A model generated the notes under the pieces. The model saw only the letters and a list, made by a program, of their open reading frames with translations. It searched no databases and was not told where the DNA came from. From a virus, in IMG/VR virus record IMGVR_UViG_3300044635_001626, positions 1 to 37,517 of that record: a stretch of DNA of 37,517 nucleotides. One strand, 5' to 3'. Positions 4,977-36,101 of the stretch are shown piece by piece; the first letter of the stretch is position 1, and each line of letters opens with the position of its first letter. The translations under genes were made by a program, and so were the position numbers.

Positions 4977-7900
4977 ATGCAGCTTGGGAAGAAGCGGGCA
5001 TGCCCTGGCGACAGTTTCATGGATTCGAAAAGCCGTGTCATGCAGCGGATGAATGGCCGCAGCAGCAAATACCCATTGTCCGCGCAGACCGTCCCTCTCG
5101 AGGTGGCACTGCGCAACAAGCTGGACCCGGCGCAGGCGTGGCCTGGTGCTCCGCCCAACTTCGGCCTGGAGGACATGCCGCATATCTTCTCGTTCGTGGG
5201 CAGATACGGCATGGTCGCCAATGCCTACATGCATGCGGACGAGGCACTGCTGCACTCGAGCCAAAACGCCGAGATCATGCGGAACGAGCCGATGATCATG
5301 GAATGCATCGAAGCGCGAATGCGATGCGTAAGCCTGCTCAATTGGCACATCCAGCCGGTGGACAACGATTACCTCCGCGATGCGCTTGACCGTGCAGACA
5401 GCCAGGAGACAGCTCAGAGCATTCGCAACGCGCTGAGCAAGCCGAAGAGTGATGCTGAGTTCATCGCAGACAAGCTGACGTCGATTCTTCGGCACACGCC
5501 ACAGTTCATGAAATTTCGTTATGCCTTGATGGACGCGATCTGGTATGGCAAGTACGCCACAGTCCAGACCATGGGCACTCGAGTGATCGGCGGCAAGCGG
5601 CGAGTCTTCGTCCGCAAATGGGAGCCCAGGCACGGCGACAAACTGGTCTTTCGCTACTCTGATGGCGACTTCGAGCACGACCCAGACCAGGTCGGCATTC
5701 GCATCGGTCCTGCGGTCAGTCGATTTGACGACGGGTGGGTGGATTACGCCGGCTTCGAGCGCAACCGAGTTGACCCAACTCAGCACGGCCTGGTTTACTG
5801 GTTCGACGGCCAACAAAGAAAGCGGATGTGCGTTCACAAGCACATCATCGAAGACGCCGATTTTATGCGGCCCGAGAAAGCCGGGTCGATCAACGGTGTC
5901 GGCATCCGCTCACGCATCTACTGGACGTGGTGGGCGTACCAGGAATCGCTCAAACTGCTCATGGAATACATCGAGCGAAGCGCCCTGGGTATCGAAATCT
6001 GGAAGTACCCCGCCCACGATCCAAAGGCCAAAGAACGCACGGAAGCAGCAGCGAAAGAGCGGGGAAGCCCTGGTCGGTCATGCGTCCTGGTCCCGGTTCC
6101 CACCGGTGAGTATGGCGACATGTATGGAGTCGAGATTGTCGAGCCAGGCCTCGGCGGCATCGGTGAATTGCAGAATGTGCTCCAGACCTTTTTTGGGCAC
6201 AAAATCAAGCGTTACATTTTAGGCCAGACGCTGACCAGCGAAGCCGACGCGACAGGCTTGGGCTCGGGCGTAGCAGATGCTCACCTTGCCACGTTCCACG
6301 ACATTGTGAGATTTGACGGCTTGAATTTGGAGGAAACGCTGACGACCGATTTGGTTCGGCCGCTACAGCTGTGGAATTTCCCAGGCTCCGATGATATTTA
6401 CCTGCGGTTCGTGATTGATACCGAAAGCCCTGACGCGCAGGAGCGAATCGCCGGTTATCAGGCAGCATGGGCGATGGGCCTGAAGATCCGCACCGAGGAC
6501 ATGTACGACGCTTTGGGGGCGGCTCCGCCTTCGGAAGGCGAAGAGTTCCTGGACAATCCTGGTTTGGACTCGGCTCGCCTCGGCAACAAGGCTCAGCAGC
6601 TCCAGATGGAGCAAATGCAGATGCAAATGCAAATGCAGCAGGCTCAGCCTCAGCAGGTCATGATGGCTCCGTTCCCGCAGGGCCAGGAGGGAGTTCCTGG
6701 CGATGGCGACATGGACGGCCTGGCCAGCGACGACCAGAACCAACTGTTCACAGACGAGCGGTCTCCATTCTTCCAGAGCCAGGCCGACGTCGAGCGGTAT
6801 GCTGCCGACGATGCCGGCACAGGCTCCGACGACAGGGGCAATGGAGACGTTGAGTACCGAGTGTTCGACCAGGGCAACATCCGCCCCGCGCTTGGCAACC
6901 CGACCAAGTCACGCTACGCCTACGGAGAGGGCGACTTTGCGGACGTCCCGACGACCAGCGGCATTACGGTGAACGGATCACAGCCCTCTCCTGCCCCGAT
7001 GCAACCGCTACCCAAGGCGATTCAGACGAAGAAAGAAAAGAAACCGTCTCGAGCAGAAAAAGAGTCAAACTGGGAAAAGCCTCACAGCCAGGCGATCAAC
7101 CCGCACTTTAAGAATTGGTCCGAAGCACAGGTGCAAGCAGTTGCCCGGCCGATTGCTGGCGACGATGCGATTGACCGGCACACTGTTGGCATTTTCAAAG
7201 GGGAAGAGCCGTTCTCGGTTGTTCACCCGGAAGATCCCTCCCAGCCACCTCGAGCGATTCACGTTGCCAGGGCACTCGATGATCGAAGCCTCAAGAGAGG
7301 CGGGAAGCTGGATGTGAAAAACGAGAGCCACCGAGCAATGCTGGCCCAGGACATGGCGTCTGAAGTCGCGCACTACGCTCAAGACAAGGGCGTGACTGGG
7401 TGGTACGACAAGTCAATCGAAAAGATGATGCACTGGCTCAACCGGTTGTATCCTGGTCGATTTGAGAACAACCCGCACGAAGCCGCTCTGTTCAAGCTTG
7501 CCGTCGCGGTCCACTCCAGCGCGACAGAAGTTTCAAACAACTTGATGGAAGCGATCAAGCAGTTTGACTTCTACGCAAAGAACGGTCACTTCGACCCGAC
7601 GCCAAACGGCAAGGGGAAGACGCTCAAGAACCAGGCCAACGCTCGCCAGCAGATCAACGCCATGATGGACAGGTTCCAGTGGCACACGTCTGGCGGCAAA
7701 GAGGACATGATTCAATTCCTGGAATCCGAAATGGAAAACCGGGAGTTGCTGGCAAGAACCAAGAGCCTTGACATGCCCAAGAAGGTCAGCGGACTTCGGA
7801 TGGGCACCAAGGTTTACGGGGCGCAGTTCTTCGGCCCGAAAATCGGAGCCTTTTACAACAACCTCCACGGGAATTACAACCCGGTTACCGTGGACATGTG

Positions 7901-8558
7901 GTTCATGCGGTCCCTTGGGCGACTGCGAGGTTCGCTGACCCAGCACTCCGTCAACGCCATTCGAGGCCAGGCTGTTCGGGTTCACAACGAACTGCTGAAT
8001 ATCCGGCAAGGTGATGCTCGATTGCACGGGCATGACAAAAAAGAGCTGCTGCGGCAATGCAAGCAGATTTTCAAGACAGGCCGGCTGGAAGGCTCAGAAT
8101 CTCTGATGGATTGGGCCGACAAGCGACATAAGTTGTTTGCCACCAGCACCGCGCCGGGACGTGCTAGCTACGCGGATGTTAACGAGCTCAACCGCGCAGC
8201 GAAGGGCCTGGACGAGTCCTTCTACAAGCAAAATCTGGCACCGAGCGGTGCAGAGTGGGATGCAATCCCTGAAATCGTCAGGCAAGCCCAAGATCTGCTG
8301 CAAAAACAGGGAATTCACATTTCAAACGCTGAGTTTCAAGCAGCGTTATGGTATTATGAAAAAGGCCTTTGGGAGCGACTCGGTTACGATTCGTCATCGG
8401 AAGACGAAGAAGGTGAAGAGCTGAAGTCTCGCAAGTCGAAGAAGAAAAAGGCAGATGAGCCTCGCAAGAAAAAGCGGGCTACCGAGCAAGTGGACTTTGG
8501 GTCTGCGGCGGAAGAGATTTACCATCGATTGAAAGCAGAGGGGAGGCAAGTTCTATGA
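4977..8558 (+). CDS. Mu gp29-like portal protein with large C-terminal extension (1193 aa)
   Basis: Residues about 60-535 match the DUF935/Mu gp29 portal family. A WTWWAYQESLKLLMEYIERS segment is followed by the family hallmark LGQTLTSEADATGLGSGV near residues 415-432 and LRFVIDTESPDAQE. Portals form the dodecameric DNA channel at one capsid vertex. Typical family members have about 500 residues, so this protein is more than twice the usual length. The core is followed by a Gln/Met-rich linker (541-562), the motif VERYA (605-609), a helical domain of unknown function (about 690-1110) and a Lys-rich tail (KSRKSKKKKADEPRKKKR). The linker plus motif suggests the extension is cut off or acts separately. 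No clear ribosome site precedes the ATG at 4977, and starts at 5019 or 5040 are possible. Confidence 0.8.
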   Translation: MQLGKKRACPGDSFMDSKSRVMQRMNGRSSKYPLSAQTVPLEVALRNKLDPAQAWPGAPPNFGLEDMPHIFSFVGRYGMVANAYMHADEALLHSSQNAEIMRNEPMIMECIEARMRCVSLLNWHIQPVDNDYLRDALDRADSQETAQSIRNALSKPKSDAEFIADKLTSILRHTPQFMKFRYALMDAIWYGKYATVQTMGTRVIGGKRRVFVRKWEPRHGDKLVFRYSDGDFEHDPDQVGIRIGPAVSRFDDGWVDYAGFERNRVDPTQHGLVYWFDGQQRKRMCVHKHIIEDADFMRPEKAGSINGVGIRSRIYWTWWAYQESLKLLMEYIERSALGIEIWKYPAHDPKAKERTEAAAKERGSPGRSCVLVPVPTGEYGDMYGVEIVEPGLGGIGELQNVLQTFFGHKIKRYILGQTLTSEADATGLGSGVADAHLATFHDIVRFDGLNLEETLTTDLVRPLQLWNFPGSDDIYLRFVIDTESPDAQERIAGYQAAWAMGLKIRTEDMYDALGAAPPSEGEEFLDNPGLDSARLGNKAQQLQMEQMQMQMQMQQAQPQQVMMAPFPQGQEGVPGDGDMDGLASDDQNQLFTDERSPFFQSQADVERYAADDAGTGSDDRGNGDVEYRVFDQGNIRPALGNPTKSRYAYGEGDFADVPTTSGITVNGSQPSPAPMQPLPKAIQTKKEKKPSRAEKESNWEKPHSQAINPHFKNWSEAQVQAVARPIAGDDAIDRHTVGIFKGEEPFSVVHPEDPSQPPRAIHVARALDDRSLKRGGKLDVKNESHRAMLAQDMASEVAHYAQDKGVTGWYDKSIEKMMHWLNRLYPGRFENNPHEAALFKLAVAVHSSATEVSNNLMEAIKQFDFYAKNGHFDPTPNGKGKTLKNQANARQQINAMMDRFQWHTSGGKEDMIQFLESEMENRELLARTKSLDMPKKVSGLRMGTKVYGAQFFGPKIGAFYNNLHGNYNPVTVDMWFMRSLGRLRGSLTQHSVNAIRGQAVRVHNELLNIRQGDARLHGHDKKELLRQCKQIFKTGRLEGSESLMDWADKRHKLFATSTAPGRASYADVNELNRAAKGLDESFYKQNLAPSGAEWDAIPEIVRQAQDLLQKQGIHISNAEFQAALWYYEKGLWERLGYDSSSEDEEGEELKSRKSKKKKADEPRKKKRATEQVDFGSAAEEIYHRLKAEGRQVL

Positions 8559-9185: not shown

Positions 9186-12100
9186 GTGCATGGCAGCAGC
9201 TGTTTTGGTCGCCCTGTTGTTGATCGGTTCATGCATGACCTGTTCGGCGAGGAAGGCAAGCATGCGGAAGGCAATTTCCCGAAGCTTGTCATTCTGGGAC
9301 GAACAAAGCACGTCACGAAGTGCCAGAACTGCGGTCGGGAAGGCCTGAAAAACACAGTAGTCTGCGCCAAGCTGGGCGACGACGGGCATCCGACCAAGGA
9401 ATACTTCTACTTCGGCACCGACTGTGCGTCGAAGATTGCCGGCCGAAAGCAAGAGGACGTTGATGCCGAGGCCGATGAGCAGGAGGCAAAGGGTCGGCCT
9501 CGAGTGCCCAAGCCGAAAGCAGTCAAGCCGAACGAAGGGCAGCAGGAGCTCGCCCTGCGATTCCAGGCGGCGATAACCGCAGCGTTTGTCGAGCGGTTTT
9601 CCGCTGAGCAGGCTTCGAATGAGCAGCCTGCCGCGCCCAAATACGACTTCAGCCGAGCGATTCTCAACGGGATGAGTCGCAAGCTGAAATCTCAAGGCTT
9701 TGACGTTCGCGGGTCTGACGACGTCAAGCAGCTGTTGGGGCGTGGTCACGTCTTCAAGGACGGCGAGTTTACTCACGACGCCTGGAAGAATGCGTATCAC
9801 GCCGCAGCTGGCTCCGTTGATAAGCGGAAGCAGACGAAGCAGAACCAGGCCGACGTTCGCAAGTTGATGCCGAACGTGAACTGGGAGGTCGTCAACAGCC
9901 TCAAGCCGACGCACAACCACCGTGTTGCCGGCTACATTCACCCCAAGGGACATTTGCTGGACCTGAGCGGTGGAGACCCGACCGGCCGCACCCGTGGCGA
10001 AGACCATCGAATCGTTGGTGGCTACGAAGCAATTGAAGAGCTCGGCGCTCACCACGGCTGGATTCGCTACATGCCGGAAGCAGGCGCTCTCGAGCTTCGG
10101 AAACAGCCAACCCCGGCGCAGGTCCGACAGATTCAGCGTTTGATCAACATCCACAACGGTGAAATCTATCTCGACCTGCACGACGGCATCGGCGAGAGGA
10201 ATTCGCCCGAGGATTACGAGCGAAGCGATCAGTTTTACAGACAGCCTCGCCGCAAGTGGAGCGGGGAATTTCGTCCTGGTGCGAAGGCTTCGAGAATTCT
10301 CAACGCCATCAAGCAGTTCTACGCCGGCCAGGAGCCGCCTCGCACGATCCGTGACCAGTTCTCGAGAAAAGCATTGGTCGAGCGATACGCATCAAGCGAG
10401 CAGGACGGCGATAGGTTTTTCGAAGAGTCCGTTTTGCGGCAAGCAAAAAACCAACCCGCTAAAAGTCGGGAACGGGTCGTTTACATGCACCCGAATGAAT
10501 TCCTGAAAATGGCCGAGGGGCTGCACAACGGTCCATCACAGGACAAGATTTCTGGCATCCATCAAGCAGTTAGCTCTGGCGTTCGACTGGACGCAATACC
10601 AGAACTGAAGTTTGACCATGACGGAAACGGCACCGCGACGGTAATCGGTCACGACGGCCGGCATCGGGCAATCTATTTGCGAGACAACCATGGGGTTACT
10701 CAGATCCCCGTCAGGCTCGTGTCTGTCGGTGGCCCTGGCGGTGCTATTCGGTGGGGTTCGCAGGAGCCAGGTTCATTTGATCGCATCAAGGGGCAGTGGC
10801 CGCAGGTGTTGAAGGGTGAGACGAACGGGCGGGTCCGGTTTCCTGTCGGTGACTTGCGAAGTCAATCCTCCCAGGCTGGCCTGGATGCTCACGAGCAGCA
10901 GCCGAACGACTTGTTTGGCAACCCGGTCAAGCCTGCGCCGGCAGCACCGGCCAAGTTCGACAGCAACAAAGGCAAGCAGCAGTCGCTCTTCGCCGGCCTA
11001 AACGCGAAGGAAGGGCAGATGAACCTCTTCGCAGACGACGGCGTACCTGACGACCTGGTTGCGAAGTCGCAAGAGCCAGACGGTCCCCCGCAGCAGCGGT
11101 CGTTGTTCTCAGCTGTGGCAGATGCCCTGGTCGAGCGATACGCGACTCGAAAGCTGCCAGACGCCTACAAGCCGAGCTGGTATCTCAAAAGCGCTCAGCT
11201 CCTGGCCCAGCGGATGCCCGAGCAGGCACCTGCCAGCCAGGTTCTCGCTCTGCTTCGCAATAACCAAATCAGCCCCGACGAGCTCGATTGGACTGGATTA
11301 CAATCGCACCTCGAGAGCCTGGGCAACTCGCCAGTTCGCCGCGATGACATGCTGAAGCTTGCCAAGGGAATGCGGGTGAAGGAAAAGTGGCTGCACGGTC
11401 AGCAGACCAAATATCCAGACCAAGTTCTTCCGGCTGGCCAGCAATACAAAGAGCTCCTGCTCACGTTGCCGAAAGACAAGCAACCGATGCCGTTCAAGCA
11501 TCAGCACTGGGGTTCCACGCCGAATGTGCTCGCCCATGCTCGCATGCATGGAATGATCGGTGCCGACGGGAAGCAGCACCTGCACATCGAAGAAATCCAA
11601 TCAGACTGGCATCAAAAAGGCCGGCATGAAACCTACATCGGCCGCAACATGTTTCAGCCGGTGACTGAGCTGCCGCCGCACTACAAAGTCAGCCAGGAGC
11701 TCACGCTATCGTCGCATGCACTTGCATGGGATGCGAGAAAAGCTGAATACAATCGAGTTGTGGGTGCTCACCCAGACTTCGGCGACGAAAGCAAGGTATT
11801 GAAGCTTCCGAACGGCCAAGAACTACTGGACCTCGACCACCTGGTTTCCAGCGCTTTTTTTCAAAATCAAGTGCCAAACAAGCGCACTTTCGATGACTGG
11901 CTATCGCTGGTGCGAAATTACGTTCCAGACGCCTTCACGAACGTCTCGCTCGAGCCACAGCCTCGGTGGGTGGTTCAGGACACGTCAATTCCAGGAAAGC
12001 ACACCATCGAGGGCAGTACGCGAGAAAAAGCAATTGCCGAAGCTTTGCGAATCCACAACGCCAGGGCGCTTGACCAGGTTAAGGCCAAGGGAGTCCCTGA

Positions 12101-15100
12101 CGCGCCGTTCAAGAATAATTGGCGGTCGCTGATGATGAAGCGAATCTTGGATTTTGCCGCCAAGAACGGATACCACAGAGTGACTTGGACTCCTGGAGAG
12201 GAGCAGGCCGCGCGTTGGAATGAAGGATTCCATGCCAATAATTTTCATTACGAACCAAATGGAGGCCATTTTTACATCGAAGACTCGAGGGTTGCTGGAG
12301 GGGGCCTTAAAGTCGCGCAAGGGTTTGTTCGGAGAGACGGAACCTTGCAAATTGATTCCGAGTATTCGAGGTTTGCAAACATGCATCACCTTCACGGAAG
12401 GCATGTTGACAATCTCTTCGGGCAAGGATTTCACGGCCAGATCCAAGACGCAATCAACGGGCATGCTTTTCGTGGCAAGCACGAAAACGGAAATCACCAC
12501 ATCCCTCTGAAAATCAATCAACCATTTTTCATTGGTGGCGAAAAGAAGAAAAAACTTTACGATGAAATGCTGCCGAGCGACACCGCAAAAGTAATCAAGC
12601 CTCACGGTGGCGTTCTTAATCATTTCGAGTTGAACGTGCCGGAATACAGCGGAGAAAAACCTTCTTATACGAGAAAGCTCAAAGTGCAAGGCTTTGACAT
12701 TACCCCGCAGATGCGTGAGTCGGTTATAGGCAAAGGGCAATCACTGTTCAGTGCTCGAGGCGACGACGACGTGTTTGTTGAACGACACCAGTCTCCGGCG
12801 CGGAACGAGCAGGGTTTCGCGTCGTTCCGCCTGGGAGCGGGCATGAAGCCAGCAGGCTCTTCAGAGTCGGCTGAGAACGGCGCTGAGAAGAGCCGGAAGA
12901 TCGCGGATGTTATTCGAACCGCTCTGAGCAAGGTTGTGCGCAAGCCCAAATCAGAGGAGGAGAAAAAGGAATCGTTCGGCATCGGCCGGCGAGTTGCTGA
13001 TGTGCTCACTGAGCGTTATTCAACTCCGTACACGCTCCGCAGCGCAAAGCTAATTCGAGAAAAGATCCCAGACAATGTACCAGCCAACCAAGCGTTGGCT
13101 ACTCTCCGCAACAACCAGATCAGTCCAGATGAAATGCAATGGACGGGACTGGAAGAATACTTGACTACGCTGGGTGACAGCAGGATATCGAAGAAACACA
13201 TTCTCAAGATGCTGGACAGCGTTCGGCTTGGAGAGACGATCCGGTCGGAGAATGCCAGCTCGAGTGAAAACTGGGATCATGTCGGTGGTGGACCGAAATA
13301 TGCCGCCTATTCCACTCCGTTTGGATATCAGAAAAACTACCGGGAAATGTTGCTTCAATGGCGAAACCCTCGCACGCAACTCACCAGTCCTTACTCTGAG
13401 CCGGGATATAAAAGCAGCCACTTCCCAGAGCATAATGTGCTTGCGCATGTCCGTTTAACAGACCGCATGACGGCACATCATGACTCGAGAGAGCTGCACA
13501 GAAAAATTATTGCTGGGCAGAATCTCACTCCAGAAGAGTCGGAATCGTATCGAGCCCACACTGGATTTGGTGCTCGAGAGCCAAATGCTGCGGTTCGCCC
13601 AAAAGCAACGTTGCACATTGAGGAGTTGCAAAGCGACTGGCACAACGAGGGCAGGAAGCACGGGTACAAGTCAAAGGCAGAGGAGCGGAACCTTTATGAT
13701 CTCGACCAATTAGTAAGAGATGCGTTTGCCAAACGCTCAATGGTTGATGATTCACCAATCGACCCGGAGCTGACCTGGAAGCTCTACAAAAGTTCCACGG
13801 CAAATTACGATGGTGCTCCAGAAGGTCCGATGGCAAAGACGTACCATAATGCCGTGATTCGGAGGATGATTCACTATGCCGTCAATAACGGCTATGACCG
13901 AGTGACTTGGGCACCAGGGTGGGAGCATGGTCGGAGGTATCCTGGCGGAATGCACCATGTCAAGCACATTGATTACGCGCCGGCCGAAGCGATTCTTGAA
14001 GGCAGCAAGCTTTACGCAATGCCTGGATGGAACATTTGGGCGTATGACCATTCTGGACGAATGATTCCGCAAGACGACCTTGACAGGCTGGTAAATCGAA
14101 ATTATCGGCTGAAGGGAGGTTTCACTCACCACGAAATTCGTTCGTTGTTCGGCGATGAAGTTGCCGGGTCAATTATTGGCGGTAAAGGACGAAATCTTCC
14201 CGGACAGGCTTACAAGCGAGTCCGTCCGACTCAGCCGCTTGCAATCGGACACGAGGCCGGGCTGAGGAAGCTGTACGACCACGAAATGCCGAAGCATGTC
14301 ACGAAAATCATCAAGCCGTTTAACGGCCAGCTCCAGCAATTCCACATGTCTCACCGAGACGGGTATCCTGGTCGATTTGAGCACCGCAAGGGCGTTGGTG
14401 GTTACGATATCATCGACAAGGCGACCGGAAAGATTGCTTTAGACGGAATGGGGTCGCCGCATACAGGGTTGCCGCTGAAGCTTTCCAAGCAACTTGCTTG
14501 GTCTTATGACCGCGATTCGCAGTCTGCCCCAGTAATGGGTTTTGATATCACCCCGGAAATGAGGGAACACTTTAAGAAAGAGGGCCCGCAGCTGTTTTCC
14601 GTCGAGGTCTCGAACGACTGGAGCGGAGAGCGGTATTCGGCTGCGTGGAATGAGCCGCACGAGCATTTCCCGGACTGGCCGGATGCATCCTCGTTCCAGG
14701 AACAACCTGTTTCCAAGCGGCCGTCTATCAGCGACCGGATTGCCAAGCAGTTGCTGGGCAAACGATCCCAGGGTGTTTCGGTACGCGCAGCTGTTCTACC
14801 GGAACCGCTCAAGCGAAACTATCTCTCGTTTGTCGGCAAAAGCCTCGGAGCACAACACAAGCACGTCGAGAACCTCGGCAAACTTGTCCAGCGATACCGA
14901 GACCCGAGATACGAAACGCTTCGGGCTGTGTTTCTCAAAGGCAATAAGGTTGTTGGCGCGAACGCTGTCACCAGCCGGCATCCTTCAGCTGTTGCATACC
15001 AACCCAACATACACATCAGGGGCATTTACGAGGACGCTCACAGCCTTGGCGCTGACAGTGTCTGGATGGTTCACAACCACCCGACAGGCAACGCGTCACC

Positions 15101-18100
15101 AAGTCCGCAAGACCATGCTGCGACCGCAAAGATGCAGCAAATGTTTCAACAGTATAATCAGCAGGTCGCTGCTCACGGCTACACGCTCCAGCCGAAAATC
15201 GCTGGTCATTTGATTGTCAACCACGATCACTTTACCACTCACCAGCCAGGCGATCCGCATGGAACGCACCAAAGGCACGAATTGAAAAAGCCTGGGAAGC
15301 CGTTATTCAGAACCGTCAAGACTGACGGGAACGACCCGAAACAGAACCAGCTTGGGCTTCCGATCAACGGTCCAGGCCAAGTTGCAAATCTCGGCTGGAA
15401 CATCCACAAGAACCCCAAGGCTGCGGTCGTTGCGCTCGCAGACGTCAGAGCCAACCTCCGAGCATTATTGGATGTAGACGCTAGTCACTTCACCAGCGAC
15501 GACCCAAGCCACGGGATAAAGCTGATGGGTGCGCTTCGGCGGATGCACCGAAAGCTTGGAACAGCAGCGGCATTCCTGTACCTGCCCAAGGGCATGAAGC
15601 TGAACCACATCAACCCAGCGGTGCGGGAGCACGGCGCATTCCTGGATGTGATCCATCACAACGATCACTCGACTGTAGGAATGAGAATCGGCCAGAACAG
15701 TCACGACATGATGGACGTGTTTGAAAAGGCCAAGCACCCGATGTTGGCTGGCAAGCGTTCTCGGGATTTCTCTCGAGACCGTGGACCAGAAAAACCGGTT
15801 GCAAGTCAGTTTGCCGCCCATTGGGAAGCAAGCATCGAGCGATTTGCAGCTAAGCGACGAGCGAACGATCTCTGGAAATTCCGGTCGGTCGAAGAGCTCC
15901 AGTCCCTGCCAGAGTATTTGCCGGCCAGCCAGGCATTGGCGACACTTGTCAACAGAAATGTCAGCCCAGATGAACTGAAGTGGACTGGCCTCGAGCGGGC
16001 CCTGGCCAAGGCAGGAAACAATCCAGTCAGTCGCGACGAATTGATCAAGCTGGCATCGGCGTTTTCGATGACGGAGAAGATTGCGCCGGCTGGTCAGCTG
16101 AGCTCCATCGATTACTCGGACTACAACTACAAGAACGGCCAAAACCCGTTCGAGCTGCTTGTTGGTCTCCCGGCCGGATACCGCACCGCTGTTGGGGTGA
16201 AAACGCCAACGAAGGTTTCGCACCGGCACTGGCAACACGACAACGTGTTGGCGCACATGCGAGGCCAGGACATGGCTTCGGTGGACGGAAAAAAGCATCT
16301 GCACCTGGAAGAGCTTCAATCGGACTGGCACCAGGCTGGCAGGGACCATGGATACAGCGAAGAAAAGGTTCCAAGCGCCAAGCAGATTGCCGAATTCTTT
16401 AACCAAAACCGGGCAAAGTTCGACAACGACTACGCATTCCCCTACCCAGGATTTGCTTCGGAGCACACATGGGAGACGCTGTCACCTGCTTATCGAAGAG
16501 ACGTGCGAAATTCGGTAGTCTCAGCAATGTCAGGCGACAGGATGCCAGCGGCACCATTTTCGAAGCATTGGCACATGATGCTGATGAAGCGAGCCATTAA
16601 GCTTGCCGCCGACCAGGGGCACGACCGGATCAGCTGGCCTGTCGGAAGCGAACACGCAAAGCGGTACAGCCTCACGCAGAAAATCCACTCGCTGGGATAC
16701 GACCCAGAAGGCCAGGTTCTGCATTTACGGCAAATAACTCCTGCCGGCAACGCCTCGCCTTGGAGTTCGGTCGGTGAGACCGTCCCCCCGGACAGATTGC
16801 ATAAGTACGTTGGACGTGGGGTTGCTGCAAACTTGCTTGCTGCTCCCAAGTTGATCACCGGGCCTGGCGGAAATGCCGTCCACCATTTGTCAGGAAAAGA
16901 CCTGGAAATCGGTGGCGACGGCATGAAGTGGTACGACGTCGCGCTGGTCAACGACACCAACAAGCTGCTCAAGAAGATGGGCGGTGGTCGCGTTTACCAA
17001 ACGCACGTCGATGCCGGCAGTGACGGCCACAAGCCGGTCCACACGTTCGACATTACTCCCGAAATGAAAGCCCACGTCTCGGGACAGGTCAGCCTGTTCA
17101 GCCTGGTCAGTGATGATGACCTCGAGCTCGAGCGATACGAAGGCGGAGAGGGCCCAGAGCGGTATTTCCTGAGCACCATCACCGGAGCAATGGACAGAAC
17201 CGAGCAAGGCCTGAAAAACCTTTGGAACAAGGCTAACGACCGTCTCGGAGATACCAAGACCTGGAATCGCGTCCAAGACTTTGGAGACAAGCAGGCAGGT
17301 CGGATTGGTGGATTTGCCGAGCGAATCGACAAGGCTGGGCAACATTTGCATTCAAAGCTGGATGAGTGGGTCAGCCGGCCTGGGACGCTGCGAGGAAAGG
17401 CCACTGAGGCAATCGACAATACGGTCGGCAAGCTGATGGGCCAAAAGCCTGCCAAGACTCCATACGAGCCGATCTCGGGTGTGCAGCCTGGAACGCACAT
17501 TTGGCTCAATGGACCGCACACGCTGAAACAAAGCGGTGGTATTCTCCCGCACATGACTCGAGGAAAGCTGGTTCGGGAAGAGAGCTCGACTCACGCCAGG
17601 GTGGACGTCAACGGGGTTCACGTCGTCTTGCCGAAACAGAACCTGTATTACGCCTTCGACCCGAACAGGGCGAAATCGACTCCCGATGCCTCTCAACAGC
17701 AGGCACAACAAGCCGAACCTGCCGCTGGGCAGGCAAGCGCCACAATCCCCGGACGGCCCGAGCCAAGCAAGGCTAAATTTACAAACCCGGAGCAGAGGCA
17801 TCCGCACGAGATTCTTCCCGGAGACCTGATCCACCAGAAAAACCCTAAGACGGGCGAGTGGGTCCACTATCAGGTTGACCGTGTGAACAAGCCGAAGAAC
17901 ACGGAGCCCGGCCGAGAGCACGAGATCAACGCGTTTGACGTCACTCAGGTCGAATACGACCCAGAGTCGCCGAACAACGTCCGACGAACCGAAACTCGGG
18001 CGAGCATTCGAGCTTCAAAACGAAACGAGCTCGGGCACAAAGAGTTCCTAAAGTTCGCTTCATCAACCCTGAAGCCATCTGCAATGAAAATGCAGAAGGA

Positions 18101-19835
18101 CCAGCCTGCGCCGGAGAAAAAGCCGGAGCCTGCACAGCCGGAAGCTGAGCCGAAGGCGAGTGAATCCTGGACTCCGGCGAGTTTTGCGGCAGCGCTTGCT
18201 GCTAACAAGGTGCCGCCAACACCGGAAAACCAACAGTATCGACTCAACAATGGACCGGCAATCGAGGAAGAGCTGAGGAAAATACCAAAGCCGGCTCAGC
18301 CAGGCCAAAAGCCTGCGAGGACTTGGACGCCGTCAAGTTTCGCGGAAGCGATGGTTGCAGGCAAAATAGACACAAGGACTCTCAGCGGAAAAGCCCTGAA
18401 GTTCTACCAGGACAACTTTGACGTAATCCAACGTGAGGTGACCTACGGGATTTTAGATTCGGTAAAACAAAAGTACCAACCGACGCCCGAGCAGCTTAAC
18501 GCGCAGATGCAAGCGCATCGAAACAAGGATGAAGCGTGGCCTGCCATTCACGAGTTGCCCCGTAACCAGTTTGTCAATGCTGGGAATGTTGGCCATGGTG
18601 GCGTGTTTGCCTTGGACAAGAAAACTGGCAAGGGTGTCCTGCTCTACAACGGCCAAAAACATGAGTTGACCGACCAGGAATTCAAGGATGGGCAAGTCGT
18701 CGCGAAGCCGAGTAAGATCCGCGCACGAATTCATCAGCAAGAAGCGGAGAAGCAATTCCTCGCTGCTGGCCAGGAAGGACTGCCGGAACATGCGAGAGAC
18801 ACATACGAGCAGCAAATCCAAGGGGCCTGGGCCAGCAGGAGAAAGGCTGCTCAAGGCCAAGTCGGCTCAAGCCAAGGCCAGGCAGAGGCGGCTCCGCCAG
18901 TCATGACCAGCTACGAGCGGCGCGGTCCAGCATCAATTGGCATTCAACCAGAACCAACTCCATCGCCCGAGGCACCAGAGCCACAGGATAACGCATTTGA
19001 TCCCAACGACCCGGCAAATGACCCGTTCAGCCCTGGCTACGTTCCTCCGGCTGAATCCCAGCAAAGCTTGCAGGGCCCTGCCCGTTCGATCCAGGTCGAT
19101 GCCGGCGTTCGAAACGCGCTGAACGAAGCCGCTATGAACACCCGTGGGAACAGGCATGCCATGGAGCATGCAATCCACGACTTTTTCCCTGGCGGCAGTC
19201 CTCAGCTGATCCAGCTTCTGAAAAACCACATCACCCAGCATTTCGCTGAAGACTTTGAAACTCTACGCCAGTTGCAGGATCGCCAGAAAGCGATCTTGCG
19301 TTCTCTGCCCAAGGGGAACACGGCAGAAGGCAGGAAGTTACTGAGCATGGTTCGCGCCGGCACCGACCTGGCAAGCCTTCAAAAGTATCTTCCAGGGTAT
19401 GACACATTGGCCGACGAGCTTCAGCAAAAATTCCCTACATATTTCGGGGGTGATGATCGAGACGAAAAGGTCAAAGACTTCATTTTCAACAAAGGCCTGA
19501 AGCGAAAGTCCTCTGACAGGATGGTCGAAGAATTCTGGTCGGCAATGCCGCCAGACTACACCGAGGCAATTCAGCACATGTTTGAAAATCCCGGGGACTT
19601 CCAGGTCATCGATTTGCCTGACGTGTCTGGCGAAAAGAACCGGGAAGAGGATCGTAGTTGGCAGGAAACAGTGCCATTCTCTGTGACTGCCGACAACGCT
19701 CTTGTCGAGCGTTTTTCGTCTGCTTGGCATTCTGGAGCACCTTGCCGTGGCAAAAGCAAAACCAACAGAAGCCCATCGACTTTTGAAAGAGGCCGAATCG
19801 AGGCCGCGATACGAAAGGCGCTCGTGGTGGTCTAG
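9186..19835 (+). CDS. Giant polyvalent protein, probable polyprotein (3549 aa)
   Basis: A single frame of 3549 codons from a GTG start. Domains in order: a zinc-binding module (KCQNCGREGL to FGTDCASKIAG, residues 45-90); an uncharacterised module with GYIHPKGHLLDLSGG (about 240-330); a ParB/DdrB-like module with VIGHDGRHRAIYL (about 430-515); three copies of one large domain (669-1189, 1286-1805, 2234-2639), each with HxEExQSDWH; a RadC-like JAB domain (1835-2200) with an intact H1963-x-H1965-x7-S1973-x2-D1976 metal site; and a long Pro/Gln-rich C-terminal region. This matches the phage polyvalent proteins, which are thought to be packaged and ejected into the host. Motifs of the type VERYA/VERFS occur at 135, 398, 649, 1275, 1814, 2217, 2648 and 3507, all at domain boundaries, suggesting proteolytic cutting into separate effectors. 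The last 30 codons overlap the next gene. Confidence 0.8.
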   Translation: MHGSSCFGRPVVDRFMHDLFGEEGKHAEGNFPKLVILGRTKHVTKCQNCGREGLKNTVVCAKLGDDGHPTKEYFYFGTDCASKIAGRKQEDVDAEADEQEAKGRPRVPKPKAVKPNEGQQELALRFQAAITAAFVERFSAEQASNEQPAAPKYDFSRAILNGMSRKLKSQGFDVRGSDDVKQLLGRGHVFKDGEFTHDAWKNAYHAAAGSVDKRKQTKQNQADVRKLMPNVNWEVVNSLKPTHNHRVAGYIHPKGHLLDLSGGDPTGRTRGEDHRIVGGYEAIEELGAHHGWIRYMPEAGALELRKQPTPAQVRQIQRLINIHNGEIYLDLHDGIGERNSPEDYERSDQFYRQPRRKWSGEFRPGAKASRILNAIKQFYAGQEPPRTIRDQFSRKALVERYASSEQDGDRFFEESVLRQAKNQPAKSRERVVYMHPNEFLKMAEGLHNGPSQDKISGIHQAVSSGVRLDAIPELKFDHDGNGTATVIGHDGRHRAIYLRDNHGVTQIPVRLVSVGGPGGAIRWGSQEPGSFDRIKGQWPQVLKGETNGRVRFPVGDLRSQSSQAGLDAHEQQPNDLFGNPVKPAPAAPAKFDSNKGKQQSLFAGLNAKEGQMNLFADDGVPDDLVAKSQEPDGPPQQRSLFSAVADALVERYATRKLPDAYKPSWYLKSAQLLAQRMPEQAPASQVLALLRNNQISPDELDWTGLQSHLESLGNSPVRRDDMLKLAKGMRVKEKWLHGQQTKYPDQVLPAGQQYKELLLTLPKDKQPMPFKHQHWGSTPNVLAHARMHGMIGADGKQHLHIEEIQSDWHQKGRHETYIGRNMFQPVTELPPHYKVSQELTLSSHALAWDARKAEYNRVVGAHPDFGDESKVLKLPNGQELLDLDHLVSSAFFQNQVPNKRTFDDWLSLVRNYVPDAFTNVSLEPQPRWVVQDTSIPGKHTIEGSTREKAIAEALRIHNARALDQVKAKGVPDAPFKNNWRSLMMKRILDFAAKNGYHRVTWTPGEEQAARWNEGFHANNFHYEPNGGHFYIEDSRVAGGGLKVAQGFVRRDGTLQIDSEYSRFANMHHLHGRHVDNLFGQGFHGQIQDAINGHAFRGKHENGNHHIPLKINQPFFIGGEKKKKLYDEMLPSDTAKVIKPHGGVLNHFELNVPEYSGEKPSYTRKLKVQGFDITPQMRESVIGKGQSLFSARGDDDVFVERHQSPARNEQGFASFRLGAGMKPAGSSESAENGAEKSRKIADVIRTALSKVVRKPKSEEEKKESFGIGRRVADVLTERYSTPYTLRSAKLIREKIPDNVPANQALATLRNNQISPDEMQWTGLEEYLTTLGDSRISKKHILKMLDSVRLGETIRSENASSSENWDHVGGGPKYAAYSTPFGYQKNYREMLLQWRNPRTQLTSPYSEPGYKSSHFPEHNVLAHVRLTDRMTAHHDSRELHRKIIAGQNLTPEESESYRAHTGFGAREPNAAVRPKATLHIEELQSDWHNEGRKHGYKSKAEERNLYDLDQLVRDAFAKRSMVDDSPIDPELTWKLYKSSTANYDGAPEGPMAKTYHNAVIRRMIHYAVNNGYDRVTWAPGWEHGRRYPGGMHHVKHIDYAPAEAILEGSKLYAMPGWNIWAYDHSGRMIPQDDLDRLVNRNYRLKGGFTHHEIRSLFGDEVAGSIIGGKGRNLPGQAYKRVRPTQPLAIGHEAGLRKLYDHEMPKHVTKIIKPFNGQLQQFHMSHRDGYPGRFEHRKGVGGYDIIDKATGKIALDGMGSPHTGLPLKLSKQLAWSYDRDSQSAPVMGFDITPEMREHFKKEGPQLFSVEVSNDWSGERYSAAWNEPHEHFPDWPDASSFQEQPVSKRPSISDRIAKQLLGKRSQGVSVRAAVLPEPLKRNYLSFVGKSLGAQHKHVENLGKLVQRYRDPRYETLRAVFLKGNKVVGANAVTSRHPSAVAYQPNIHIRGIYEDAHSLGADSVWMVHNHPTGNASPSPQDHAATAKMQQMFQQYNQQVAAHGYTLQPKIAGHLIVNHDHFTTHQPGDPHGTHQRHELKKPGKPLFRTVKTDGNDPKQNQLGLPINGPGQVANLGWNIHKNPKAAVVALADVRANLRALLDVDASHFTSDDPSHGIKLMGALRRMHRKLGTAAAFLYLPKGMKLNHINPAVREHGAFLDVIHHNDHSTVGMRIGQNSHDMMDVFEKAKHPMLAGKRSRDFSRDRGPEKPVASQFAAHWEASIERFAAKRRANDLWKFRSVEELQSLPEYLPASQALATLVNRNVSPDELKWTGLERALAKAGNNPVSRDELIKLASAFSMTEKIAPAGQLSSIDYSDYNYKNGQNPFELLVGLPAGYRTAVGVKTPTKVSHRHWQHDNVLAHMRGQDMASVDGKKHLHLEELQSDWHQAGRDHGYSEEKVPSAKQIAEFFNQNRAKFDNDYAFPYPGFASEHTWETLSPAYRRDVRNSVVSAMSGDRMPAAPFSKHWHMMLMKRAIKLAADQGHDRISWPVGSEHAKRYSLTQKIHSLGYDPEGQVLHLRQITPAGNASPWSSVGETVPPDRLHKYVGRGVAANLLAAPKLITGPGGNAVHHLSGKDLEIGGDGMKWYDVALVNDTNKLLKKMGGGRVYQTHVDAGSDGHKPVHTFDITPEMKAHVSGQVSLFSLVSDDDLELERYEGGEGPERYFLSTITGAMDRTEQGLKNLWNKANDRLGDTKTWNRVQDFGDKQAGRIGGFAERIDKAGQHLHSKLDEWVSRPGTLRGKATEAIDNTVGKLMGQKPAKTPYEPISGVQPGTHIWLNGPHTLKQSGGILPHMTRGKLVREESSTHARVDVNGVHVVLPKQNLYYAFDPNRAKSTPDASQQQAQQAEPAAGQASATIPGRPEPSKAKFTNPEQRHPHEILPGDLIHQKNPKTGEWVHYQVDRVNKPKNTEPGREHEINAFDVTQVEYDPESPNNVRRTETRASIRASKRNELGHKEFLKFASSTLKPSAMKMQKDQPAPEKKPEPAQPEAEPKASESWTPASFAAALAANKVPPTPENQQYRLNNGPAIEEELRKIPKPAQPGQKPARTWTPSSFAEAMVAGKIDTRTLSGKALKFYQDNFDVIQREVTYGILDSVKQKYQPTPEQLNAQMQAHRNKDEAWPAIHELPRNQFVNAGNVGHGGVFALDKKTGKGVLLYNGQKHELTDQEFKDGQVVAKPSKIRARIHQQEAEKQFLAAGQEGLPEHARDTYEQQIQGAWASRRKAAQGQVGSSQGQAEAAPPVMTSYERRGPASIGIQPEPTPSPEAPEPQDNAFDPNDPANDPFSPGYVPPAESQQSLQGPARSIQVDAGVRNALNEAAMNTRGNRHAMEHAIHDFFPGGSPQLIQLLKNHITQHFAEDFETLRQLQDRQKAILRSLPKGNTAEGRKLLSMVRAGTDLASLQKYLPGYDTLADELQQKFPTYFGGDDRDEKVKDFIFNKGLKRKSSDRMVEEFWSAMPPDYTEAIQHMFENPGDFQVIDLPDVSGEKNREEDRSWQETVPFSVTADNALVERFSSAWHSGAPCRGKSKTNRSPSTFERGRIEAAIRKALVVV
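11190..12752 (+). repeat. Large polyvalent domain, copy 1
   Basis: Residues 669-1189 of the giant protein. Landmarks shared by all three copies are an opening ISPDELDWTGL, a middle LHIEEIQSDWHQ, then MKRILDFAAKNGYHRVTWT and a closing FDITPQMR followed by GQSLFS. The copies are alike in protein but diverged in DNA, so the duplication is old. Confidence 0.75.
13041..14600 (+). repeat. Large polyvalent domain, copy 2
   Basis: Residues 1286-1805 of the giant protein. Landmarks are ISPDEMQWTGL, LHIEELQSDWHN, IRRMIHYAVNNGYDRVTWA, FDITPEMR and GPQLFS. The conserved acidic and histidine residues of the central motif are intact, so all three copies may be active. Confidence 0.75.
15885..17102 (+). 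repeat. Large polyvalent domain, copy 3
   Basis: Residues 2234-2639 of the giant protein, over 100 residues shorter than the other copies. Landmarks are VSPDELKWTGL, LHLEELQSDWHQ, MKRAIKLAADQGHDRISW, FDITPEMK and QVSLFS. The section between the last two landmarks is the most changed. Confidence 0.7.
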
Positions 19836-30116: not shown

Positions 30117-30138
30117 CGGCCAGGTCTCGGCCTGGCCG
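30117..30138 (+). terminator. Probable terminator hairpin
   Basis: CGGCCAGG-TCTCGG-CCTGGCCG is a perfect 8-bp GC-rich stem with a six-base loop, followed by TGTCTTCTTTC. The T tract is interrupted, so termination may be partial. It covers a GTG at 30138 that would otherwise be the first possible start of the protease gene, supporting the later ATG. Confidence 0.5.
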
Positions 30139-30158
30139 TGTCTTCTTTCGAGGGTGGT

Positions 30159-31103
30159 ATGTCTGACCGTTGGTTCTCGATTCCTGACGACATTCGCAGC
30201 GATTACGTAGTTCAAACGGCAAATGCGCCGGTGGTCTGGTCGATTGACAAAAAGTTGTTCCAGCCAATCTGGGACCAGGGGATCACTGGCGAAGGCGTGA
30301 AGGTTTGCGTCTGCGACACCGGGATTGCCAGCCATCCAAACATCCCGAAAGCGGCTCTGGCTCGGAATTTCACTAGCTCCGGCTCTGGCACGACAGACGT
30401 CACCGACCGAAACGGCCATGGCACACATTGCGCCGGGACGATTCTCGGAACGGACGGTATTGGTGTTGCTCCTGGCGCTACCTTGATGGTCGCCAAGGTC
30501 TTGGGAGACAACGGATCGGGTTCGACAACCTGGATTAACTCCGGCTTGCTTTGGGCGGCAGAGAACGGCGCTGACATTGCCAGCCGTTCGCTTGGAGGTG
30601 GCCAGGGTGACCAAGACGACTTGGCAGTAATCAACGAAGCCTATTCTAAAGGGCTGGCGATTGACGTCTGTGCTGCCGGCAATTCCGGGTTTTCTGGCCG
30701 AGGTAACACGATTGGCTATCCGGCCCGCTATGACCTCGGTTTCTGCGTCGGAGCTACCAGGTCTGACGGGCAGATCGCAAACTTCAGCTCTGGCGGGCAG
30801 CAAATGGACGTTGCCTGCCCAGGGGAACAAATCATATCAGCGAGCCACCGGGGGGGGTTCGTTGCGATGAGTGGAACCAGCATGGCCACGCCATGGATGG
30901 CAGGCCTCCTGGCCCTTGTTATTCACAAACGCCGAATAAACGGGCTCCCAGATTTGAAGGGACACGTTCAGTGGCTTGAATTTTTCAAGAACGAGGGATT
31001 TCTTCAGGATCGCGGAGCACCGGGCTTCGACCCTCGATTCGGCAACGGATACCCCGTTATTGACCGTATTTTGTCGTATTTGGTTGACCCTGAATGGGTG
31101 TAA
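30159..31103 (+). CDS. Subtilisin-like serine protease, family S8 (314 aa)
   Basis: A 314-residue protease with the full catalytic set: D53 in VCVCDTGIASHP, H87 in NGHGTHCAG, oxyanion N175 in AAGNSG, and S241 in SGTSMATP. No signal peptide and no long propeptide are present, so it is probably made in the cytoplasm and may act inside the cell or be packaged. The ATG at 30159 is preferred over the GTG at 30138, which lies in a hairpin. Possible targets include phage proteins (for example the giant polyprotein), host proteins or the envelope. Phage-encoded subtilisins are uncommon. Confidence 0.85.
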   Translation: MSDRWFSIPDDIRSDYVVQTANAPVVWSIDKKLFQPIWDQGITGEGVKVCVCDTGIASHPNIPKAALARNFTSSGSGTTDVTDRNGHGTHCAGTILGTDGIGVAPGATLMVAKVLGDNGSGSTTWINSGLLWAAENGADIASRSLGGGQGDQDDLAVINEAYSKGLAIDVCAAGNSGFSGRGNTIGYPARYDLGFCVGATRSDGQIANFSSGGQQMDVACPGEQIISASHRGGFVAMSGTSMATPWMAGLLALVIHKRRINGLPDLKGHVQWLEFFKNEGFLQDRGAPGFDPRFGNGYPVIDRILSYLVDPEWV

Positions 31104-32791: not shown

Positions 32792-34378
32792 ATGCAAATT
32801 ACTCCACGACCTGGCGAAAACGAATATGCATTCACGGTGAGGGCTCATCGAGAGCTGATGCCGCAGGTGCAGGATTTTCACCGACGAAATCAAATGGTCT
32901 GGAATTCATGGGACCAAAGCAGCGGGCCCAGCCGAGCTCGCCAGATTGCAAGCCAAAAGTTTCCGACCGACCGTTACGAATTTAGCCCGGCGCATTGCCA
33001 TTTTGCCGAGCACGACAAAGTCGAACCGAGCGGCAATGTCAAACGCGTAGGCGTGAACGACCTGATTCAGATTCTCCAGGAAAACAACTCACAAATCCTG
33101 GACCGAGAGAACTTCCAGGCAATCACCCTCGGGCACACTTCCGATCATTACGCCGCGAAAGACCCTGACGTTATTGGCTTCGCCGGTCCATATCGCCTCG
33201 GCATGATCGGTCACGAGAAACCAGTCTTTGCGATCTTTGGCGATGAATACCACCGCAGGGACCGGATTAATGACATTCAGTCAGCTCCCCGCCGAAGCAT
33301 CGAACTGAATACTCTCCGAAGCACCGGACAGAGGTGGTTTGACCCGATTGCTGCGCTCGGCGCGAAAGCTCCTCGGCTGGCCATGCCGGCAAAGTACGAC
33401 TCCTCGACTGAAGCCGAGGTTGAGCGGTACTCAGTCGTCGCTCCGGCCTACTCCCCGGGCGGCAGTAATACGCACGTTCCAGGCAATAACCAGGTGGAAA
33501 AGGCTGTCTATGGTGACAGCGTGCCACCGCAAACACAACAAGAGGACACAATGGGCCCGAACAACATCAGCGACCAGGACATTGCCGCAATTGTTGCCGC
33601 AATTGAGCAGATGCCTGAAATACAATTCATCCGCTCCATGCCTCAGTTCCTGACTCAAGGCGCGGGCATGGGCGGCAATCAAGACCCGATGGCCGGTCCG
33701 GGCGGCGCTCTCGGCGCAGCCCCTCCGGCTGGTGGTGGCGATTCCGTATTGGCTGCTCCGCCTGCCGCAGGTCCGGGTGCAGCCGGCGGTCTTGGTGCTC
33801 CTGGTGCTGGAGATCCGGGCCTTGGTGGTCAGGACGAAGAAAATTACGAAGCGTTGCCCGAACCGGGAGACGAGGAAGACGACGAGGAAAACATGAATCA
33901 GCCTTACTCTGCTCAGCGGCACGTCAACGTTGACCGCTACCAAGCTCGCATCGGTCAGCTGGAGACCACGGTCGCCCAGCAAATGAAGACCATCAACAAG
34001 ATGACTGCCGTCATGCAGGCCGAGCATCGCAACGCTGCTGACGTTCGTCGTCGTGCTCAGCTTGAGACGTTGTCAAATCGGTACAGCATCATCGACTGCG
34101 ACGAAGAGCTCGAAAAGTGCCTTTATTCGGCCGGCTCGGCCATGACTGACAAGGACTTCGACAAGCACCTGGCCTCGCTTGAAAAGTTCGGTGCTCGAGC
34201 TGAAGCGCTTGGCGGTGCTCGAATCCCTCAAGGCGAGCTCCCGATGACCGAAAAAGACACGGAGCGATTTGCCGCCGAGTGCCAGGCTGCTCAGGATATT
34301 TTCAACGAAAAGGTGAACCAGGGCGATTGGATCGACTGGGACACTGCTCTCGGCATGGCTCGCCAACGCAAAAGCTAG
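32792..34378 (+). CDS. Prohead protease fused to capsid scaffold (528 aa)
   Basis: A 528-residue protein. Residues 1-200 look like a prohead protease of the assemblin-like fold: GHTSDH (H115) and RRSIEL (S169) are candidate catalytic His and Ser, and the domain closes with DPIAALGAKAPRLAMP. The motif VERYS follows directly at 210-214. The rest is a Gly/Ala/Pro-rich linker, an acidic stretch and a coiled coil (RIGQLETTVAQQMKTINKM), typical of a scaffold. Further motif variants lie at VDRYQ (380), SNRYS (428) and TERFA (490). Such fusions release the scaffold by self-cleavage during capsid maturation. The ATG at 32792 lacks a good ribosome site. Confidence 0.75.
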   Translation: MQITPRPGENEYAFTVRAHRELMPQVQDFHRRNQMVWNSWDQSSGPSRARQIASQKFPTDRYEFSPAHCHFAEHDKVEPSGNVKRVGVNDLIQILQENNSQILDRENFQAITLGHTSDHYAAKDPDVIGFAGPYRLGMIGHEKPVFAIFGDEYHRRDRINDIQSAPRRSIELNTLRSTGQRWFDPIAALGAKAPRLAMPAKYDSSTEAEVERYSVVAPAYSPGGSNTHVPGNNQVEKAVYGDSVPPQTQQEDTMGPNNISDQDIAAIVAAIEQMPEIQFIRSMPQFLTQGAGMGGNQDPMAGPGGALGAAPPAGGGDSVLAAPPAAGPGAAGGLGAPGAGDPGLGGQDEENYEALPEPGDEEDDEENMNQPYSAQRHVNVDRYQARIGQLETTVAQQMKTINKMTAVMQAEHRNAADVRRRAQLETLSNRYSIIDCDEELEKCLYSAGSAMTDKDFDKHLASLEKFGARAEALGGARIPQGELPMTEKDTERFAAECQAAQDIFNEKVNQGDWIDWDTALGMARQRKS

Positions 34379-34440: not shown

Positions 34441-34839
34441 ATGAGCCACTCTGCTCCTTCTTATGTAGCAAGCGAAGACATTCCCGTTTCTGTTTTCGTC
34501 AATATCTTGCTGAACAACGACCACGAAATCGAAGTTTGCGATGCGGGCGACCTTGCAATTGGAGTCAGCGACTACGCACCTCAAGATCCAGTATTGCCAG
34601 GCGGTTCTCTCGGGCCAGCCGCTACGACCGGAAACGCCTGTCGGGTTTTTGGACTGGGCGACACTTGCGAGGTTCTGGCCGGCGGTGCCGTTCAGGCCGG
34701 ACAGTATCTCAAGCCTGATGCTGCTGGCAAGGCAGTTGCCTGTTCGTCCAATGACAAATACTCCGCCATCGCCCGTGCGGGCGCTGGCGCTGCAAACCAG
34801 CTGGTGAAAGTGATTCTCGAACAGGGCGTTGCTCCGTAG
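34441..34839 (+). CDS. DUF2190-like capsid decoration protein (132 aa)
   Basis: A 132-residue protein beginning MSHSAPSYVASEDIPVSV. The pattern (DLAIGVSDYA, then GLGDTCEVLAGGAVQAGQ, YLKPDAAGKAVACSS and a final QLVKVILEQG) is that of the DUF2190 family, small proteins located between scaffold and major capsid protein that decorate or stabilise the capsid. No ribosome site is seen. Position between protease/scaffold and capsid supports the call. Confidence 0.65.
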   Translation: MSHSAPSYVASEDIPVSVFVNILLNNDHEIEVCDAGDLAIGVSDYAPQDPVLPGGSLGPAATTGNACRVFGLGDTCEVLAGGAVQAGQYLKPDAAGKAVACSSNDKYSAIARAGAGAANQLVKVILEQGVAP

Positions 34840-35042: not shown

Positions 35043-36101
35043 ATGCCCGTTGGCGCACCTTTTTTCCCAGGCAATTCGAACACCTACATCAAGGACCATG
35101 CGGCCACTGGCTACTTGATCACCCAATACAGCCGCAACCCCAAGGACTTCCCCTTGGCCCGGTATGCTCAGTATCGGGAAGTCAAAAAGGACTCTGGATA
35201 CTACCTGCGAATGACTGCCGAACAGGCTGGTCGTCTCGTTGGTGGAACCCTGGATGAATTTGTTTGGCCGGACGGTGCAGACCGACCGAATCACAACGAC
35301 GGCCTGGAGACCGTGGCCTGGGCAGACTACCGCACTCAGCGGTATGACTTCCCGTTCCGCCTTGGCCAAAAGGCTGTCGAGCAAGCCGGCTGGGACGTGA
35401 AGGCTGTCGAAGCGGCCAATCACGCTCAGCAGGCGATGACAGGCCGGACTCGCCAAATGCACCTGGCCTTCGAGACCAACTCGAACTGGGACACTGGCCA
35501 CCGTGTTGACGTCACCTCGATTTCTGGCGTATCCGGCCGCTGGGATTTGAGCACCACTGCTCGGATGGACATCAAGAAGAGCATCAACCACGCCCGCGAC
35601 CTGATTCTGAAGGACACCCTCGGTGTCGTGAAGAACAAGGCCGACATGCGGCTCGTCATGAACCCCTACACCGCTCGCAAGATCGGTGAATGCCAGGAAA
35701 TGGTCGATGCGATCAAGCATTCGACTGACGCGTTGAAGCACTGGAAGGGTGACCTGCCGGATTACTCCGAATTCGGGCTCCCGACCCTGCTGTACGGCAT
35801 CCCGATTGTGGTTGAAGACACCGTAATGGTGACCAGCCGCCGAGGTGCCTCCACTCCGACCCGCAGCTACGTCTGCGCGGACAACGTGGTGTACCTGGTC
35901 AGCCGACCAGGCGGTCTGATGGCCAAGGCCAACAGCGGTCCTTCCTTCAGCTCTGCGATGGTCTTCCTCTACGAAGACATGACCGTGGAGACTCAGAACG
36001 ACCCGAAGAACCGCCGAATGGACGGCCACGTCGTGAACGACCAGTTCTGCGGAATCATCGCTCCGGCAAGCTGCTTCAAATTTGAAAACGTGACTGCCTA
36101 G
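35043..36101 (+). CDS. Major capsid protein (352 aa)
   Basis: A 352-residue protein starting at ATG 35043 (MPVGAPFFPGN), with GAGGA nine bases upstream. Size, position after protease/scaffold and decoration protein, and motifs such as MRLVMNPYTARKIGECQE, LPTLLYGIPIVVEDTVMV and the final FCGIIAPASCFKFENVTA fit an HK97-fold capsid protein. The codon choice looks regular and the gene is followed by a strong terminator, as expected for a highly expressed gene. No close family is recognised. PLARYAQ near residue 36 is only a weak match to the cleavage-like motif. Confidence 0.8.
   Translation: MPVGAPFFPGNSNTYIKDHAATGYLITQYSRNPKDFPLARYAQYREVKKDSGYYLRMTAEQAGRLVGGTLDEFVWPDGADRPNHNDGLETVAWADYRTQRYDFPFRLGQKAVEQAGWDVKAVEAANHAQQAMTGRTRQMHLAFETNSNWDTGHRVDVTSISGVSGRWDLSTTARMDIKKSINHARDLILKDTLGVVKNKADMRLVMNPYTARKIGECQEMVDAIKHSTDALKHWKGDLPDYSEFGLPTLLYGIPIVVEDTVMVTSRRGASTPTRSYVCADNVVYLVSRPGGLMAKANSGPSFSSAMVFLYEDMTVETQNDPKNRRMDGHVVNDQFCGIIAPASCFKFENVTA

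Follow-up and report, generated by a model that had tools for sequence, protein, structure and literature searches.

It is proposed that the gene at positions 32792..34378 of the window (the whole stretch of DNA analysed here, a 37,517-nt IMG/VR virus record) encodes a prohead protease fused to a scaffold, that the sequence VERY at the junction of the two parts is the recognition sequence of this protease, and that the bond cut is the one between Tyr213 and Ser214. This reading, which also takes in the copies of the motif in the portal and in a giant polyprotein, is in our judgement probably correct. The most informative feature at the junction, absent from the initial annotation, is a mimic of the capsid protein: the approximately 13 residues directly after the junction tyrosine resemble the N-terminus of the major capsid protein of the same phage.

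The late genes are arranged in the order portal, polyprotein, tail and other late genes, protease-scaffold, cement-type protein and major capsid protein; the portal, polyprotein, protease-scaffold, cement and capsid genes, and the features located in them below, are on the plus strand. The portal (4977..8558) is of the Mu type (PF06074, E 4e-36) and carries a 650-aa C-terminal extension, and the polyprotein (9186..19835, 3,549 aa) contains a RadC/JAB domain and one module present three times. The cement/decoration-type protein (34441..34839) was assigned by phrog_673 (E 5.7e-18) and a weak match to Phage_cement_2. The major capsid protein (35043..36101, 352 aa) has the HK97 fold, its AlphaFold model giving 369 PDB matches at E<=1e-3 in Foldseek, HK97 heads included, and phrog_1005 (major head protein) was assigned to three capsid homologues; residues 1-31 of the model have low confidence, as expected of a flexible N-arm (PVGAPFFPGNSNTYIK, 35046-35093). 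Lying among portal, cement and capsid genes, the protease-scaffold gene has the position of a prohead protease gene. Its relatives were found in IMG/VR and on two planctomycete MAG contigs (one Phycisphaerae, one Pirellulaceae), with gene calls made mechanically, and a search of annotated phage records with the N-terminal half of the protein returned no match. Contigs from four other metagenome records (L002-L005) encode a protein 100% identical to that of the window.

The 528-aa ORF, taken from the ATG at 32792 and conserved in related loci, begins with a putative protease domain (residues 1-190, 32792..33361) that is seen in an alignment of 17 sequences and modelled by AlphaFold mostly at high confidence as a single domain. 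Four residues are invariant in that alignment: H74 (33011), H115 (33134), S169 (33296; within RRS(169)IEL) and E171 (33302). The conserved N-terminal Ser and His fit a prohead serine protease, and S169, which the initial annotation had placed in the active site, would be the catalytic serine. H74 (33011-33013, in FxEH) could be a third catalytic residue, comparable to the Ser-His-His of herpesvirus assemblin. Behind the domain, residues 192-210 and 216-259 are of low confidence, a short predicted strand (208-215, likewise of low confidence) holds VERYS, and the remainder consists of helices (261-288 and 380-527, with a coiled coil at 380-430) and a disordered stretch (286-377). The placing of the motif between a protease-like domain and a disordered linker with a coiled coil, as first annotated, is thus borne out by the model.

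Matches of the model in BFVD were to predicted capsid maturation or prohead proteases and to phage scaffolding proteins, the best having E-values of 2.6e-8 (unnamed entries) and 7.6e-6 (capsid maturation protease of Gordonia phage Jumbo); these matches are themselves predicted models, and their TM-scores are low across the whole chain. Sequence searches of Pfam, PHROG and PDB gave no named protease matching the protein, and a PDB fold search with the protease model found no solved-structure match. Together with the invariant residues and the helical C-terminal part, the BFVD matches support the earlier reading of a fusion, and the gene product is likely a prohead protease with a scaffold attached.

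A single ORF that precedes the capsid gene and holds a protease followed by a helical scaffold is the layout of P2 gpO and Mu I/Z. The gpO of P2 is self-cleaving. It resembles the protein of the window in having an N-terminal protease (S-x-E) and a C-terminal coiled-coil scaffold encoded by a single ORF shortly before the capsid gene, and differs from it in having neither the VERY motif nor a mimic of the capsid N-terminus. The likeness to Mu extends to the Mu-type portal and to a scaffold at the 3' end of the protease gene, for which a nested internal start is annotated in Mu; unlike the window, Mu gene I/Z and gpT have no mimic. By hhalign, P2 gpO and Mu gpI gave probabilities of 0.6-1.0%, that is, no detectable homology, and neither Mu I nor Mu gpT gave a significant profile match to the protease and the capsid protein, respectively; the one structural link to the P2 type is a weak match via the P2-like phage KSP20. 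The gene would therefore work like these fusions, whether or not it belongs to their families. Self-cleaving scaffolds are also cited (Chang 2008) in PMC10945586.

The junction sequence VERYS (GTT GAG CGG TAC TCA, 33419-33433) is in frame and occupies residues 210-214, as the initial annotation had stated; VERY itself (33419..33430) is the proposed cleavage signal. Computed over the relatives, a junction sequence of the form φ-[ED]-[RK]-Y, lying in the low-confidence linker, is kept in most lineages, at 26-38% protein identity. Variants among the relatives are VECY, REKY, RKY and LKY, and the motif is absent at the junction of the three most distant lineages (G011, G013 and G031), whose other proteins likewise lack its strict form. 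In L082/G025, two copies of VERY stand 25 residues apart at the junction, with the capsid mimic behind the second only, and G025 has 11 ERY against 1.7 expected.

Elsewhere in the window the motif is strongly enriched. There are ten copies of [VILT]ER[YF][SAG] against 0.11 expected, with a maximum of two in 300 shuffles, and four copies of VERY against 0.05 expected, and all ten copies of the former lie in head-module genes, namely the 375-aa gene before the portal, the portal, the polyprotein and the protease-scaffold gene. In each of the seven contigs tested, VERY is the commonest order of the four letters (in G015 by a single copy), and in many relatives ERY is the most enriched tripeptide with a final Y or F, or among the most enriched; in several distant relatives, copies of the motif beyond the protease gene are few. 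That VERYS is a chance occurrence, short motifs being apt to recur in large proteins, is scarcely credible, as it is contradicted by the shuffle-tested enrichment and by conservation at the same place.

The copies fall at borders. In the portal, VERYA (6789..6803) separates the portal domain from the extension, and G001 has VERYS at the same place. In the polyprotein, VERFS (9588..9602) stands at a module border behind the N-terminal segment, where G001 has VERYG, and is followed by VERYA (10377..10391), by VERYA (11130..11144), TERYS (13008..13022) and IERFA (15834..15848) at the starts of the first, second and third copies of the module, by LERYE (17127..17141) at the end of the third copy, and by VERFS (19704..19718) 39 aa before the C-terminus, where G001 has TERFS. 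When the polyproteins of the window and of G001 were divided at the motif and the pieces compared, residues 653-1201, 1279-1817 and 2221-2651 of the former and 1581-2147 of the latter proved homologous almost end to end, each module copy starting just behind one motif and ending with another, in an order that differs between the two polyproteins. The module itself (11130-17141, three motif-bracketed copies of ~430-550 aa) has a weak match to phrog_7348 as its only family match, and the RadC/JAB domain (PF04002, 14628-15833) lies between two motif copies. A short helix-like stretch precedes many of the polyprotein motifs at 9588-19718 (for example LFSAVADALVERY, PFSVTADNALVERF and LRFQAAITAAFVERF), reminiscent of the capsid targeting sequences of T4, which end in a cut site.

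These sequence comparisons lend good support to the reading of φ-E-R-Y/F as a site of the head protease, and the gene serves as the independent anchor for it that the initial annotation had suggested, because the motif sits at the protease/scaffold junction, is conserved there across lineages of about 30% identity and is common to the polyprotein and the portal. Co-variation between the junction and the other sites is partial. G022 has VRKY|A at the junction and LRKY|A near the end of the portal extension, which is suggestive; the residue at position P2 of the proposed site varies at the junction (VECY, LKY, REKY), and the polyproteins of G020 and G021 have no matching change. A clean co-variation of junction variants with polyprotein sites was rejected, as only G022 fits and the polyproteins of the VECY clade carry VDKY/AEKY. 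Within known head-protease systems a close precedent is that of T4 gp21, the phiKZ-type phages and SPN3US gp245, where a single protease cleaves both itself and several head proteins, all at a short common motif (PMC10052503); the window differs in that its motif is φ-E-R-Y, occurs repeatedly in a giant polyprotein made up of modules and belongs to a protease fused to its scaffold. Large multi-domain phage proteins encoded beside head genes have been described as polyvalent proteins by Iyer et al. (2017, PMC5512222), with a proposal that they are processed, mainly by built-in metallopeptidases. A check of the polyprotein for content of this type identified the RadC/JAB domain and gave no assignment for the repeated module and other segments; unlike the polyvalent proteins, the polyprotein has a conserved border motif in common with the head protease gene.

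The mimic occupies 33431..33481 (SVVAPAYSPGGSNTHVP, to be compared with PVGAPFFPGNSNTYIK of the capsid protein). The corresponding pairs of junction and capsid peptides are SAASVFAFPGGSNTFVK and AAGTYAYPGGSNTYVK in L036, SVVSPVAVGASNTFIP and AAGPTTAVGQSNTFIP in L012, AAVAPGPSNVFVP and AAVHPGPSNVYIR in L084, and AMVMPGGNSTFIPS and AAFLPGGNNTFVPS in L037. With the capsid protein itself set aside, the junction peptide is the best match to the own capsid N-terminus in the predicted proteome of eight of the nine contigs compared, the exception being G007, where it ranks near fifth. Among 26 non-redundant loci (the start of L082 being corrected), the mimic is missing only in the three motif-less lineages, and it is weakest, where present, in L029 (p = 0.053). 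Over 21 lineages, the similarity of the junction to the own capsid protein lies about 6.9 s.d. above permutations that pair it with the capsid proteins of other phages, and a partial Mantel test given capsid core identity leaves a modest correlation (r = 0.28, p = 0.01), by which shared ancestry is controlled in part. No mimic was found in Mu gpI/gpT or P2 gpO/gpN, the pairs in which it was looked for.

The register of the mimic bears on the bond that is cut. The distance from the junction tyrosine to the core of the mimic equals that from the initiator Met to the core of the capsid N-terminus in 14 of the 21 lineages and exceeds it by one residue in six and by two in one, and the two leader lengths, which include long and short ones, are correlated (r = 0.92, permutation p = 1e-4). 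The capsid starts of L076, L078, L080, L085, L086 and L082 had been mis-set by an automatic last-ATG rule, and most were set by hand from Shine-Dalgarno (SD) sites, that of L085 by analogy with L086; since these starts were set manually, the peptides concerned are hand-registered in the co-variation and register statistics. As the register equals that of the Met-processed capsid protein, it provides the best single sequence argument for a cut directly behind Tyr213. The junction leader of the window is one residue longer than the capsid leader, and the cut may alternatively follow Ser214. In the clade of L020, L021 and L026, VERY is followed by MM and a weak SD lies upstream, which would allow translation to start right at the mimic.

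The mimic can also be accommodated by a rather unlikely explanation, in which VERY and the following peptide would form a shell-docking element that stays uncut and the scaffold would be freed by an internal start, as the nested gene of Mu I/Z. Mimicry alone requires no cleavage, a nested start is annotated in Mu, and the window has an AAGAGGA followed after 4 nt by an ATG (33540..33553, ATG at 33551, Met254), and in about 13 of 26 lineages the homologous Met likewise follows an SD; from there a separate free scaffold could be made. Two observations argue against it: copies of the motif that no mimic follows lie at module borders of the polyprotein and in the portal, and the register of the mimic behind the tyrosine is that of the initiator Met, which an uncut linker would not need. 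An internal start is also compatible with the proposed cut: the nested product would have neither VERY nor the mimic, so that a free scaffold could exist beside a docked form that bears the protease. The self-release of the protease put forward in the initial annotation fits the junction motif, but it is not the only route to a free scaffold, because the SD-ATG lies in frame downstream and about half of the lineages have one at the corresponding position.

That annotation had also assumed shredding of the scaffold at three further variants of the motif. All three are present, at residues 380, 428 and 490, and the first, VDRYQ (33929..33943), at the start of the coiled coil and the disorder/helix border of the model, is kept in relatives as VDRYQ, VERYA or VEQYS and is a possible second site. 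SNRYS (34073..34087) was rejected as a conserved cut site by the alignment of relatives, as was TERFA (34259..34273), which lies inside a predicted helix, is replaced by TARFA in the two nearest relatives and is probably not a site. Shredding thus rests at most on VDRYQ, as SNRYS and TERFA are not conserved.

It is unlikely that the mimic is a functionless relic, either of an old duplication or of an ancestral scaffold-capsid fusion of the HK97 delta domain type. Such an ancestor, with a cut site followed by the N-arm, is plausible because HK97 and D3 cut a scaffold domain off the capsid N-terminus (PMC12749128). The window resembles these phages in its arrangement of scaffold, proposed cut site and N-arm sequence and differs in that its capsid protein has no delta domain and the N-arm copy is in the scaffold protein. 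Against a relic, the two copies continue to co-vary in sequence and in leader length in deeply diverged lineages, beyond the identity of the capsid core, with ancestry controlled in part.

Cutting of the motif by a different protease, a host enzyme or the subtilase of the same late cluster (Peptidase_S8, 30138-31103, PF00082, E 5e-48), is very improbable. Homologues of the subtilase were found only in the window's own clade and in G024 (the relatives with one being G001, L006 and G024), whereas the junction motif and the protease gene are found in most lineages; it was rejected as the general processing enzyme on its absence from most relatives.

In the proposed mechanism, the fused protease is the enzyme that would cut at VERY, and the mimic would act as a docking element, its copy of the N-arm holding protease and scaffold at the growing shell until the cut is made. 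This role is plausible because N-arms of HK97-fold proteins extend to an adjacent subunit, as in JBD30, where the arm hooks towards the next capsomer (PMC11445458). The activated protease would then cut behind VERY and so be parted from the scaffold, whose new N-terminus would resemble that of the capsid protein in the register of its Met-processed form. We infer that the same protease would also cut the motif in the tail of the portal and in the presumably packaged polyprotein, dividing the latter into separate modules. A stronger version is put forward tentatively, as one that may well be wrong: the scaffold would possess a functional replica of the capsid N-terminus, which the cut at VERY uncovers in register and which competes with or replaces the N-arm while the shell is assembled, and the same signal would divide a packaged polyprotein of ~3,500 residues.

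Protease-scaffold fusions (P2 gpO, Mu I/Z), common cleavage motifs of head proteins and multi-domain polyvalent proteins are already known. In a literature search of incomplete coverage, which is not proof of absence, we found described neither φ-E-R-Y as a shared head-protein cleavage motif nor mimicry of the N-arm by a scaffold, and within that search the motif and the capsid N-terminus mimic behind the junction are new. For a planctomycete-linked phage group to which the search of annotated phage records gave no match, they provide a testable cleavage rule. The mimic in addition offers a means of predicting cut sites, by alignment of the protease protein with the N-terminal sequence of the capsid protein of the same phage. 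The motif also offers a possible account of how a giant head-linked polyprotein is divided, and N-terminal mimicry may be a means by which protease and scaffold are brought to the capsid.
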